Shown here: positions 6,498 to 13,391 of the stretch, one piece after another
Numbering within the stretch: the first letter of the stretch is position 1
Layout: every line of letters starts with the position of its first letter
Assembly (NCBI RefSeq): GCF_000007725.1
Contig: NC_004545.1
Span: forward strand, 124,001-188,000
Direction: 5' to 3'
DNA: 64,000 nucleotides
From: Buchnera aphidicola str. Bp (Baizongia pistaciae)
GTDB lineage: Bacteria; Pseudomonadota; Gammaproteobacteria; Enterobacterales; Enterobacteriaceae
Notes under the pieces: model-generated
The model's input: only the letters and a program-made list of their open reading frames with translations
Databases searched by the model: none
What the model was told of the DNA's origin: nothing
Translations under genes and position numbers: made by a program

Positions 6498-6530
6498 AGA
6501 TACCAGTTAGAGTAACTGGTATCTGTTTTG
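6498..6530 (+). terminator. Rho-independent terminator after aroH
   Basis: A 12-base perfect stem (AGATACCAGTTA / TAACTGGTATCT) with a 3-base loop at 6510-6512, followed by GTTTTG. It begins 10 bases after the aroH stop. It is unusually stable for this AT-rich sequence and is the clearest terminator in the window. Confidence 0.9.
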
Positions 6531-6662: not shown

Positions 6663-8594
6663 ATGCCTACTATTAAGTTTATTGATGGTACTTGTCGGGT
6701 ATATCCGGGTTCTATTTCAGTATTAGATATTTTGAAAGATGTTTCTCCTAATTCAGTTCAAGATTTTATGTTTGGATGTGTTAATGGAATTAGCGTAGAT
6801 CGAAATGCTATTGTAACTAATGATTCTATTGTGAAATTTGTATATAAAACGGATCAGTCTACTTTGGATATTATACGTTATTCTTGTATATGTTTATTAG
6901 GGAAAGCAGTTAAAAAATTGTGGCCTAGTTCGAAAATTGGAGAAAGTGATGTTTTAGAGAATGGTTTTTTTTGTGACATAGAAGTAGATTTTTCATTTAA
7001 TGAAACAAGTTTACATTTGTTAGAAGCATGTATGCGACAAATGATTAATAAAAAATATAAGATATATACAAAAACGTTTTCTTTAAAAAAAGCTAGTACT
7101 ATTTTTAAAAATAGGAATGAGACTTACAAATTGTTTTTATTAGATAGGTTAGTTAATTTTTCTAATCAAGTTGTATCTTTGTGTTTTCATGAAGAGTATA
7201 TAGATATTCAAAAAAAGATTTCTGTTCCAAATATATTTTTGTGTCGTAATTTTAGATTACAAAAGTTTTCTGGTGTATATTGGAAGGGAAAAAGAGAAAA
7301 TAAAGTATTACAACGCATATATGGCACTTCATGGATTACGCGAATTCAATTAGAAAAACATTTAGATAACGTTAAAAAATTGGATTCAAGAGATCATAGA
7401 AAAATTTCTAAAATATTAGATTTATATCATATTCAGGAAGATTTACCAGGAATGATTTTTTGGCATAGAAATGGATGGATTGTTTTTCAAGAATTAAAAA
7501 AACTTATTCGTGTTAAACTAAGAAAATATAATTATCAAGAAGTTAAAACTCCTGTCATGATGAATAAAAAAATATGGAAAGATAGTGGTCATTTAGATAA
7601 TTATAAAGAGTCCATGTTCATGGTATGTTCCAGTAATTTTGAGTATGGAATAAAACCTATGAATTGCCCTGGGCATGTACAAATTTTTAACCATGTTGTT
7701 CGTTCTTATCGTGATCTTCCAATTCGTATTTCAGAATTTGGTAGTTGTCATCGTAATGAGCCTTCGGGTGCATTGCATGGTTTGATGCGGATTAGAAATT
7801 TTACTCAAGACGATGCACATATTTTTTGCCGAGAGGATCAAATATGTAGCGAGGTTAGCAACTGCATACGAATGGTGTATGAGATATATAAGATATTTGG
7901 TTTTAAGAAGATTCTAGTTAGATTATCTACAAGACCTAAAAATAGAATTGGAAATGATAATATATGGGATAAAGCTGAAAATGATTTAGCTACGTCATTG
8001 CGCGAAAGTAAGATAGAATTTGAGTATCAGCATGGAGAAGGGGCTTTTTATGGTCCAAAAATTGAACTGTCATTATTTGATTCTTTAGGACGTGTTTGGC
8101 AGTGTGCTACTATACAATTAGATTTTTGTTTACCAATAAATTTAAAGGCATTTTACATTGATCATAATAATGAACGTAAAGTTCCAATTATAGTTCATAG
8201 AGCGGTATTAGGTTCTATTGAAAGGTTTATTGGTATTTTGATAGAAGAGTACATAGGAAACTTTCCAACGTGGTTAGCTCCCATCCAAGTAGTTTTAGCT
8301 AATGTTAATAGTAATCATCTTCAATATATTAAACTATTATATAAAGAATTTTATGCTTTGGGAATTCGTTCAGAAATAGATTCAAGAAATGAAACTATTA
8401 GTTATAAAATTAGAGAACATATTGCACGTAAAATTCCTTATATAATTATTTGTGGTGATAAAGAGGTAAAAAATAACACGATAACACTTAGAACTAGGTC
8501 TGGGAAGAATTTTTACTGCATAGATGTTCAATTTTTTATTTCAAAGCTATGTAAAGAAATTAATAGTTATAGTTGTAGTCTAATGGAGGAATAA
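6663..8594 (+). CDS. thrS: Threonyl-tRNA synthetase with degenerate editing site
   Basis: Class II synthetase that charges tRNA-Thr. It has 643 residues against 642 in E. coli, with TGS domain (about 1-62), editing domain (about 63-225), catalytic core (about 243-535) and anticodon-binding domain (about 536-643). The zinc ligands of the active site are kept (KPMNCPGH, DDAHIF, VHRAVLGS), as is RNEPSGALHGL. The proofreading site is not: E. coli H73 and H77 are Y73 and C77, and C182 and H186 correspond to Q183 and S187. Aminoacylation should work, while hydrolysis of Ser-tRNA-Thr should not (inference). The ATG follows AAGGATC. It heads a thrS-infC-rpmI-rplT cluster; infC starts three bases after its stop. 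Confidence 0.97.
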   Translation: MPTIKFIDGTCRVYPGSISVLDILKDVSPNSVQDFMFGCVNGISVDRNAIVTNDSIVKFVYKTDQSTLDIIRYSCICLLGKAVKKLWPSSKIGESDVLENGFFCDIEVDFSFNETSLHLLEACMRQMINKKYKIYTKTFSLKKASTIFKNRNETYKLFLLDRLVNFSNQVVSLCFHEEYIDIQKKISVPNIFLCRNFRLQKFSGVYWKGKRENKVLQRIYGTSWITRIQLEKHLDNVKKLDSRDHRKISKILDLYHIQEDLPGMIFWHRNGWIVFQELKKLIRVKLRKYNYQEVKTPVMMNKKIWKDSGHLDNYKESMFMVCSSNFEYGIKPMNCPGHVQIFNHVVRSYRDLPIRISEFGSCHRNEPSGALHGLMRIRNFTQDDAHIFCREDQICSEVSNCIRMVYEIYKIFGFKKILVRLSTRPKNRIGNDNIWDKAENDLATSLRESKIEFEYQHGEGAFYGPKIELSLFDSLGRVWQCATIQLDFCLPINLKAFYIDHNNERKVPIIVHRAVLGSIERFIGILIEEYIGNFPTWLAPIQVVLANVNSNHLQYIKLLYKEFYALGIRSEIDSRNETISYKIREHIARKIPYIIICGDKEVKNNTITLRTRSGKNFYCIDVQFFISKLCKEINSYSCSLMEE

Positions 8595-10982: not shown

Positions 10983-13391
10983 ATGGAATTTAGTGAAAAA
11001 TGGTTATTAGATTGGTTAGGTTTTTCTATTAGCAATGTTTTTTATGAACAAATGACTAAATCTGGTATAGAAGTTGAAGCAATTGCTAAAATATCAAAAA
11101 ATTTTGAACGAGTAATTGTAGGAGAAGTTGTTGAACGTTTATATGTAAACACTATGCATAATATAGTTTTTTTAAGAGTAAAACTTTCAGAAAAAAAAAT
11201 GATTTTTAGTATATCTTCTAATGACATAGAATTTTCACGTGGAACAAAAATAGCTATAGCTACTCAAGATTCTAAATTATTTAATAATAGATTAATTAGT
11301 ATGTTACGATTTAAAGAAAAGATTTCAGAAGGTATGGTATGTTCATTTAAAGATTTAGGTATTCTAAATATTAAAAATAAAATAGTTGAAATATGTTCTG
11401 AAGTTCCTGTTGGAACTGACATTAGTAAATTTTTGTGGTTTGATGATGATCGTATTATTAAAGTTAGTAGCGCTCCAAACCGTGCCGATGGAATGAGTAT
11501 TTTAGGTATAGCAAGAGATATGTCAGCATTAAATAATTTATGTTTACCTACATTAAAAGAATATCATATTAATATTACTAACCATGAAAAATTTAGAATT
11601 TTAATTAATATACCTGATGTTTGTTTAAATTTTATTGGACGTACTATCCAAAGCGTTAATTTAAATAGGCAAACTCCTCTTTGGATATTAGAAAGACTTA
11701 GAAGATCTTCTATTAGTTCAGAAAATGTTTTGGTAGATATTATTAATTATGTATTGATAGAGTTAGGACAACCAATTTTTTCATTTAATATTCATGGAAT
11801 TGTTCAGAATATAATTATCAGAACTGCCCGAGATAATGAACAGTTTTTTGATAGTTGTTCACAAAGAGTGCCTATTGATAAGCGTACTATATTACTTTCT
11901 GATGACAAAGAAATATTAGTATTGGGAAATCATACTAATTCTTATAATTCGAGATTGTCGTTGAGTTCTCATAATATATTTTTAGGATGTGCACTTTTTA
12001 ATCCAGAATATATAAATAATGATTCGCATTTTAATTTTGGATTTAAAAATAAAATTACAGAATATTACTCTAGAGGAGTAGATTCAGATATTCAATATAA
12101 GGCATTAAATTATGTAACATATTTGGTGTTAAAAATTTGTGGAGGTAATGCTAGTAATGTTGTTTTAGCAAATTCGTCAAGAGTTACTGTTATTCAAAAA
12201 AAAATATTTGTGTTAAAAAAAACGCTTCATAGATATGTTAATAACATTATTAGTGATACTTTAGTAGTAAAATATTTATTACAATTAGGGTATTTAGTTG
12301 AAAAACAAAAACATTGTTGGTTAGTTATTCCTCCTAGTTGGAGATTTGATATCCAAATTCAAGAAGATGTAATTAGTGATTTAGTGCGTGTTTTTGGATA
12401 TCATAACATTCCTGCTTGCGCGTTAGTTACTAATTATAAATTAGTACACGATGATAATATATATACGTCTTTGAATAGAATAAAATTATTGTTAGTAGAT
12501 TTAGGATATAATGAAGTAATTACTTATAGTTTTGTAGATTCTCAAATACAAAAATATTTGTTTCCTAAGAGGAAACAATTTTTTTTATTAAATCCTATTT
12601 CTCGTAAAATGTCGTCTATGAGATTATCTTTGTGGAATGGTTTGTTGTCTAGTGTTTTATATAATCAAAATAGACAAGAGAAAGTCATGCGTTTTTTTGA
12701 AAGTGGGTTGTGTTTTGAAGAGGATGGCAACGAATATTTAGGAGTTAAACAGGATTTGTACTTAGCTGGCGTTATTAGTGGTTATAAGAATGAAACGGAT
12801 TGGAGATCGTTTAACAAGATAGTTAGTTTTTATGATTTAAAAGGTGATATAGAATTAATTATGGCTTTATTAAGAAAATTAGATAAAGTATCATTTAAAA
12901 AAATGTTATTTCAAAATTTATGTCCTAAACAAAGTGCAGCTATTTATTTTGAACGTGAAATGATTGGTGTTATTGGAGTAATTAGTTCTAATATTTCAAA
13001 AAAAATGGGTTTAAAATATAAAACTATTGTATTTGAATTAATATGGAAAAAAATTGCTCAAAGTAATGATTATAGAATTCGAGATGTATCTTTATATCCA
13101 AGATGTTCAAGAGACATTTCTATTATTGTTAATGATTCAATTGCAGCTGATGAAATTCTTAAAGTTAGTAAAAACGTTTTTTTAGATAAAATTGTTGAAG
13201 TTAAATTATTTGATGTTTTTTATGGAAAAAATGTAGGATTAAACAAGAAAAGTTTATCATTGAGATTTATATTTGGAAGTAGTAAAAGAACGTTGTCAGA
13301 GGAAATAATTTCAAATTGTTTAAATGAATGTATACGAATTTTGCAAGAAAAATTTAATGCGATATTGAGGGATCGAAATTTTTTATTTTAA
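10983..13391 (+). CDS. pheT: Phenylalanyl-tRNA synthetase beta subunit with degenerate editing domain
   Basis: Structural and tRNA-binding subunit of PheRS that normally also hydrolyses Tyr-tRNA-Phe. It has 802 residues (E. coli 795) and aligns end to end. The B5 domain and class II-like core are well kept (WRFDIQIQEDV, MRLSLWNGLL, FYDLKGD). The B3/B4 editing domain is not: counting against E. coli gives H265 to F266, G318 to N319, E334 to G335 and A356 to I358, and GQPMHAFD has become GQPIFSFN. The N-terminal OB-fold, where E. coli has HPNADKLRV, is also poorly conserved. Complex assembly and charging are probably intact and proofreading probably lost (inference). In E. coli ihfA follows; here there is none. 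Confidence 0.96.
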   Translation: MEFSEKWLLDWLGFSISNVFYEQMTKSGIEVEAIAKISKNFERVIVGEVVERLYVNTMHNIVFLRVKLSEKKMIFSISSNDIEFSRGTKIAIATQDSKLFNNRLISMLRFKEKISEGMVCSFKDLGILNIKNKIVEICSEVPVGTDISKFLWFDDDRIIKVSSAPNRADGMSILGIARDMSALNNLCLPTLKEYHINITNHEKFRILINIPDVCLNFIGRTIQSVNLNRQTPLWILERLRRSSISSENVLVDIINYVLIELGQPIFSFNIHGIVQNIIIRTARDNEQFFDSCSQRVPIDKRTILLSDDKEILVLGNHTNSYNSRLSLSSHNIFLGCALFNPEYINNDSHFNFGFKNKITEYYSRGVDSDIQYKALNYVTYLVLKICGGNASNVVLANSSRVTVIQKKIFVLKKTLHRYVNNIISDTLVVKYLLQLGYLVEKQKHCWLVIPPSWRFDIQIQEDVISDLVRVFGYHNIPACALVTNYKLVHDDNIYTSLNRIKLLLVDLGYNEVITYSFVDSQIQKYLFPKRKQFFLLNPISRKMSSMRLSLWNGLLSSVLYNQNRQEKVMRFFESGLCFEEDGNEYLGVKQDLYLAGVISGYKNETDWRSFNKIVSFYDLKGDIELIMALLRKLDKVSFKKMLFQNLCPKQSAAIYFEREMIGVIGVISSNISKKMGLKYKTIVFELIWKKIAQSNDYRIRDVSLYPRCSRDISIIVNDSIAADEILKVSKNVFLDKIVEVKLFDVFYGKNVGLNKKSLSLRFIFGSSKRTLSEEIISNCLNECIRILQEKFNAILRDRNFLF

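Follow-up and report, generated by a model that had tools for sequence, protein, structure and literature searches.

Threonyl-tRNA synthetase of Buchnera aphidicola (Baizongia pistaciae): loss of the proofreading residues and retention of the editing domain

The thrS gene of this insect mutualist raises the question of whether its threonyl-tRNA synthetase (ThrRS) can still remove serine from tRNA(Thr) and, if it cannot, why the domain that would have done so is still there. The window, by which we mean the whole 64,000-nucleotide stretch of DNA that was analysed, contains an intact open reading frame for a ThrRS of 643 amino acids (6663-8594, forward strand) without an internal stop. The protein belongs among the bacterial ThrRSs, as it has the class II core, the HGTP anticodon domain, the zinc residues and the N2 editing domain, and its Pfam matches are to tRNA_SAD (27.7 bits, cut-off 24), tRNA-synt_2b (180 bits) and HGTP_anticodon (69.6 bits). 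In phmmer it aligns along its whole length with E. coli ThrRS (1qf6_A; 784 bits), which bears out the collinearity claimed by the initial annotation except for one extra residue near 170; because of this residue the last two editing positions were numbered 183 and 187 there instead of 182 and 186. The boundaries of N2 were presumed to lie at 63-224 in E. coli numbering, and the parts of the gene are as follows.

6663..8594, forward strand: thrS, threonyl-tRNA synthetase, 643 aa (open reading frame, Pfam, phmmer to 1qf6_A)
6663..6848, forward strand: N1 domain, residues 1-62, retained (collinear with 1qf6_A; dN/dS 0.11-0.39)
6849..7337, forward strand: N2 editing domain, residues 63-225, recognisable as a domain, catalytic residues gone (Pfam, alignment, dN/dS)
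6879..6881, forward strand: codon 73, Tyr replacing catalytic His73 (alignment to 1qf6_A)
6891..6893, forward strand: codon 77, Cys replacing catalytic His77 (alignment to 1qf6_A)
7209..7211, forward strand: codon 183, Gln replacing catalytic Cys182 (alignment to 1qf6_A)
7221..7223, forward strand: codon 187, Ser replacing catalytic His186 (alignment to 1qf6_A)
7392..8267, forward strand: aminoacylation core, E. coli 243-534, zinc residues C334/H385/H511 retained (Pfam, alignment)
8106..8108, forward strand: codon 482 (E. coli 481), Ala replacing Gly in the CGTVQLDF motif (121-genome comparison)
8268..8594, forward strand: anticodon-binding domain and stop (Pfam)

Where an editing-competent enzyme has H73, H77, C182 and H186, the window ThrRS reads YCQS, and the phmmer alignment confirms the four replacements that had been proposed (H73 to Y73, H77 to C77, C182 to Q183 and H186 to S187). 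The motifs FHEEY, VPN and ENGF, named in the initial annotation as kept parts of the surrounding fold, are present in the translation. The aminoacylation core is likewise intact, as had been stated, with its Pfam core and anticodon matches and with C334, H385 and H511 of the active site conserved. The symbiont and E. coli enzymes therefore share the full domain order, the core and the zinc residues, but the E. coli enzyme has the editing residues and Gly481, whereas the symbiont has all four replaced and carries G481A.

All four residues are lost in each of the 11 genomes of the genus and kept in 21 of 21 large-genome relatives, that is, genomes of at least 2.5 Mb whose free-living status is assumed from size. 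As the same positions are lost in the ten other genomes of the genus, a sequencing error is not involved. In a quick tree built from the ThrRS core, in which branches are long and 29 of 96 inner branches open, the members of the genus group as a single clade (SH-aLRT 98), and loss in their common ancestor would be the simplest reading. Within N2 the loss of catalytic residues exceeds chance expectation: 29 of the 100 positions common to at least 20 of the 21 large-genome relatives are lost in every one of the 11 genomes of the genus, the four catalytic positions included (hypergeometric P 0.006). When the window ThrRS is taken alone, the same 100 positions give 48 losses including the catalytic four (P 0.05), and a stricter set of 58 positions gives 15 losses across the genus (P 0.003) and 24 in the window protein alone (P 0.025). 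According to excerpts of PMC4041444 all four residues are critical in E. coli ThrRS, and the editing kcat is lowered 7000-fold by H73A, 70-fold by H186A and more than 500-fold by C182A/S.

A free-standing deacylase, which the initial annotation had raised as a possible substitute, was looked for in the readable genome, the assembly consisting of 615,980 + 2,399 = 618,379 bases and the second contig of 2,399 bases, which reads N, lying outside the searches. There, tRNA_SAD (PF07973) occurs in AlaRS and ThrRS and in no third protein, PF02580 (DTD) has no match, and the single match to PF04073 is a frame of 587 aa that is ProRS; each of the ten further members of the genus likewise gives a single PF04073 match, the frames being 563-580 aa long, and PF08915 is absent from all 11. 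No free protein of the stand-alone ThrRS-ed, AlaX, INS/ProXp or DTD families was thus found in the readable genome. Since the four residues are lost throughout the genus and kept in the large-genome relatives, and since the readable genome yielded no stand-alone deacylase, the symbiont ThrRS has almost certainly lost its post-transfer proofreading of Ser-tRNA(Thr). All these searches were of symbiont genomes. Editing in trans by a deacylase that the host encodes would require import of the protein into the symbiont and is scarcely credible.

The loss is not special to this strain but is common to the genus and to most of the genomes of up to 0.65 Mb that were examined. Our table of the four residues covers 121 genomes: the 11 of the genus, 89 others of up to 2.4 Mb and the 21 large ones. 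Of the 89, 85 come from a draw of 246 genomes of the family, where they make up all genomes in that size range that do not belong to the genus; the other four represent other families and come from a second sample, which also supplied the 21 large ones. G037 and G053 (2.2-2.3 Mb) and further large genomes of the two samples stand outside the table. Genome sizes are rounded, and the size bins were built on rounded values. A ThrRS open frame of fewer than 500 aa, in which a four-letter readout is meaningless, was classed as gone or broken. Among the 60 genomes of up to 0.65 Mb one has an intact site, 3 have lost one residue, 10 three and 29 four, and in 17 the domain is gone or broken; with the genus set aside (n=49) the figures become 1, 3, 10, 18 and 17. 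Between 0.65 and 1.05 Mb (n=19) there are 7 intact sites, 5 with one loss, 1 with two and 3 with three, and the domain is gone in 3. Intact sites number 8 and single losses 4 between 1.05 and 1.65 Mb (n=12), and 8 and 1 between 1.65 and 2.5 Mb (n=9); every large genome is intact (21/21).

The second part of the question concerns the domain that remains. In the six closest pairs within the genus, which share genomes and so are not independent, N2 has a dN/dS of 0.19-0.34, similar to that of the anticodon domain (0.16-0.32); the core gives 0.07-0.14 and N1 0.11-0.39. The ratio of N2 to core distance is 2.47 in the genus and 2.20 in the 31 other genomes in which the enzyme is full-length and lacks three or four of the residues, against 1.52 in 14 small genomes with intact sites and 1.43 in the 21 large genomes. 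N2 is under relaxed yet clearly present purifying selection. In at least 10 of the 11 members of the genus, 30 of the 58 N2 positions common to all large genomes are kept, and K156 and D180 are conserved in all 11. The description of the domain in the initial annotation as catalytically hollow thus holds for the four residues, but it needs to be qualified, as the dN/dS of 0.19-0.34 and the conservation of K156 and D180 speak against simple decay. Purifying selection on an N2 that is catalytically dead suggests that it probably serves tRNA handling, being retained for its shape and its hold on the tRNA rather than for hydrolysis. In some lineages it is dispensable, since it is missing or disrupted in 20 of the 121 genomes, which belong to 13 genera (L043-L045 are examples of deletion among the relatives). 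The yeast mitochondrial ThrRS also works without post-transfer editing (PMC4267643, in excerpt), but it is without the whole editing domain, which the symbiont ThrRS retains.

Some residues near the pocket are derived in the genus and fixed or almost so, namely C104 and C173 (11/11) and Q182 and I185 (10/11). Pure decay does not predict the fixation of C104, C173 and Q182, and this counts against the explanation of tolerated loss that we favour below. It could be argued from them that the pocket has been refitted, with N/Y73, C77, C104, C173 and Q182 performing another hydrolysis or binding another ligand. Residue 73 varies in the genus between Y, N and S, however, residue 77 between C, Y and G, and residue 186 between S, P and A; the set in G007 is SGKP and positions 94-96 are scrambled. 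C104 also arises in other lineages in which editing is lost, and packing is a simpler account of fixed derived residues, so that a refitted pocket appears very improbable.

The region upstream of thrS was also considered. In E. coli, ThrRS acts as a repressor of the mRNA that encodes it, and this repression depends on the N-terminal region of the enzyme (excerpts of PMC7373986). Autoregulation as a reason for keeping N2 was rejected, as inspection by eye, which is not a formal test, revealed no tRNA-like stems in the 200 bases upstream of thrS in the 11 genomes. No Rfam family matched the window at its gathering score. A hairpin, GATACCAGTT...AACTGGTATC, lies at 6499-6523 directly after aroH; it looks terminator-like by eye, and similar ones occur upstream of thrS in several relatives.

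AlaRS of the same genome provides an internal comparison, as it has the same Pfam domain and the same four residue types and both enzymes guard against serine. It differs from ThrRS in that its HHCH set is intact, and all 11 genomes of the genus have retained the AlaRS editing residues. The comparison was extended to 59 of the 100 genomes of up to 2.4 Mb, hand-picked to cover genera. In these the AlaRS set is intact in 56 and the ThrRS set in 6. Fifty genomes have AlaRS intact and ThrRS lost (here even one changed residue counts as loss), 6 have both intact and 2 neither, AlaRS of one is unscored, and none has AlaRS lost with ThrRS intact. The exceptions are G110 and G156, where the AlaRS domain is absent, and G016, in which contig breaks divide the gene so that C and H alone can be read. 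By genus (n=42), 33 have AlaRS intact throughout and no ThrRS-intact member, 6 have some ThrRS-intact member, and 3 hold the two losses and the unscored case.

As the AlaRS site is nearly always kept and the ThrRS site nearly always lost, the contrast amounts to a natural ranking of the translation errors that a cell can bear. This ranking agrees with the growth of E. coli mutants as given in excerpts of PMC10057733, where ThrRS C182A hardly affects growth and mutation of the AlaRS Cys inhibits it at raised temperature; an excerpt of PMC11415595 lists ThrRS among the synthetases whose editing defects cause bacterial growth defects. The explanation that we consider quite probable is that loss of the four residues would remove hydrolysis of Ser-tRNA(Thr), and that this could be tolerated because replacement of threonine by serine is presumably mild. 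The AlaRS site of the same type would be kept because serine in place of alanine is likely to be harmful, and the N-terminal domain of ThrRS may persist because it still holds or positions tRNA(Thr). According to an excerpt of PMC11415595, errors do not necessarily become more frequent when an editing site is lost; this, and the place of ThrRS in that review's list of growth-affecting defects, count against the explanation. As conceivable consequences of the loss, the initial annotation proposed that threonine codons would be read with serine at raised frequency or that the host would keep serine low. As regards serine supply, serC and thrC are present in all 11 genomes of the genus. The product of serC also serves pyridoxal phosphate synthesis.

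Other synthetases of the genome were compared at residues that we take to be their editing sites. In PheRS beta (10983-13391), aligned to 3pco_B, R244, H265 and E334 are replaced, as in all 11 genomes of the genus; the columns of T354/A356 are shifted by gaps and were left out. Elsewhere, G106 keeps H265 without the other two and G226 has none of the three. LeuRS of the same genome (L055, 214-2799) has ISKPST for TTRPDT, and its second motif is degraded too, although T252 and the last Asp remain; the first motif is changed also in G008 and G010 and slightly in G006. The motifs of IleRS and ValRS are retained with small changes in the four genomes examined. It has been proposed in reviews, as excerpted, that in Mycoplasma and host-restricted bacteria mistranslation is itself selected for and gives a "statistical proteome". 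Selection of this kind for serine mistranslation is most improbable here, as a general gain from errors would not predict that AlaRS keeps its residues in all 11 genomes of the genus or that IleRS and ValRS keep their motifs in the four of four genomes examined, and losing the mild site fits tolerance.

The aminoacylation core has one feature peculiar to the genus. The CGTVQLDF motif carries Ala at position 481 in all 11 members and Gly in the other 110 of 110 genomes of the table, including all 51 in which three or four residues or the whole domain are lost. Of 22 listed core positions, 20 in the genus are as in E. coli; the two exceptions are 481 and 376, the latter a change from V to I at a site that also varies elsewhere. 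G481A is one event in one clade, and we regard it as a candidate for a change compensating for lost editing. The human cytosolic ThrRS, which is editing-competent, has Ala at 481. Fidelity might have been largely kept in the synthetic site in spite of lost editing, by a sharper choice of threonine over serine or by pre-transfer hydrolysis of Ser-AMP, perhaps tied to G481A, and there are two mitochondrial parallels (both in excerpts of PMC4267643): the yeast ThrRS, which has no editing domain, carries out pre-transfer editing, and the activation site of the human LeuRS is said to be more rigorous. Pre-transfer editing in yeast is insufficient against mischarging according to the same excerpts, however. 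With other lineages having lost editing without G481A, with Ala at 481 in the human enzyme counting against a role in fidelity, and with 20 of the 22 core positions as in E. coli and the zinc residues unchanged, we consider fidelity kept in the synthetic site to be unlikely. A broader proposal, that the genus has moved from two-site to one-site fidelity with the pocket rebuilt as a selected tRNA-binding module and G481A partly discriminating serine, seems more doubtful still.

The loss of the ThrRS editing residues is an instance of the known erosion of editing in host-restricted bacteria. No report on this Buchnera ThrRS was found in searches of the literature on Buchnera or on synthetase editing and mistranslation in endosymbionts. 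The survey by Melnikov et al. in 2018 reportedly took in bacterial genomes at large, and this ThrRS may well already be in its tables for that reason. Such losses in host-restricted bacteria are published (Melnikov et al. 2018, via excerpts of PMC11020763, PMC10057733, PMC11415595 and PMC7373986). The symbiont resembles the editing-degenerate synthetases of such bacteria, for example LeuRS, PheRS and ThrRS of Mycoplasma, in its small host-bound genome (618,379 bases), in having several synthetases affected and in having lost editing residues that large-genome relatives keep. It differs in being an insect mutualist and in the selectivity of its loss, with Thr and Phe lost, Leu degraded and the Ala, Ile and Val motifs kept. 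No Mycoplasma with three or more synthetase editing sites lost is known, two being the most, according to the excerpts of PMC7373986; three degraded sites in one genome (Thr, Phe and Leu), as they appear from sequence, would exceed that maximum. What the present analysis adds to the known erosion is the contrast between AlaRS and ThrRS, the purifying selection on a dead domain and the fixed G481A.

Thirteen genomes have lost exactly one residue, ten of them H73, two H77 and one C182. As so many have lost H73, the residue with the largest effect quoted for E. coli, the order of decay can now be studied. Several further patterns were observed. L089 and L078, two genomes of 0.3-0.4 Mb in g58, have lost H73 only, a decay far milder than in others of that size. 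Replacement of both H77 and H186 by Gln is a recurrent pair in many small genomes, e.g. L069, L070, L102, L106 and L098. In the pair L100/L130 of genus g140 one ThrRS has all four residues; in the other the matched stretch contains 11 in-frame TAA and one TGA, and the open frame spans only 415 aa, so that the loss appears recent. In L143 and L144, of about 0.26 Mb, thrS contains seven in-frame TGA, as if TGA were read as tryptophan.
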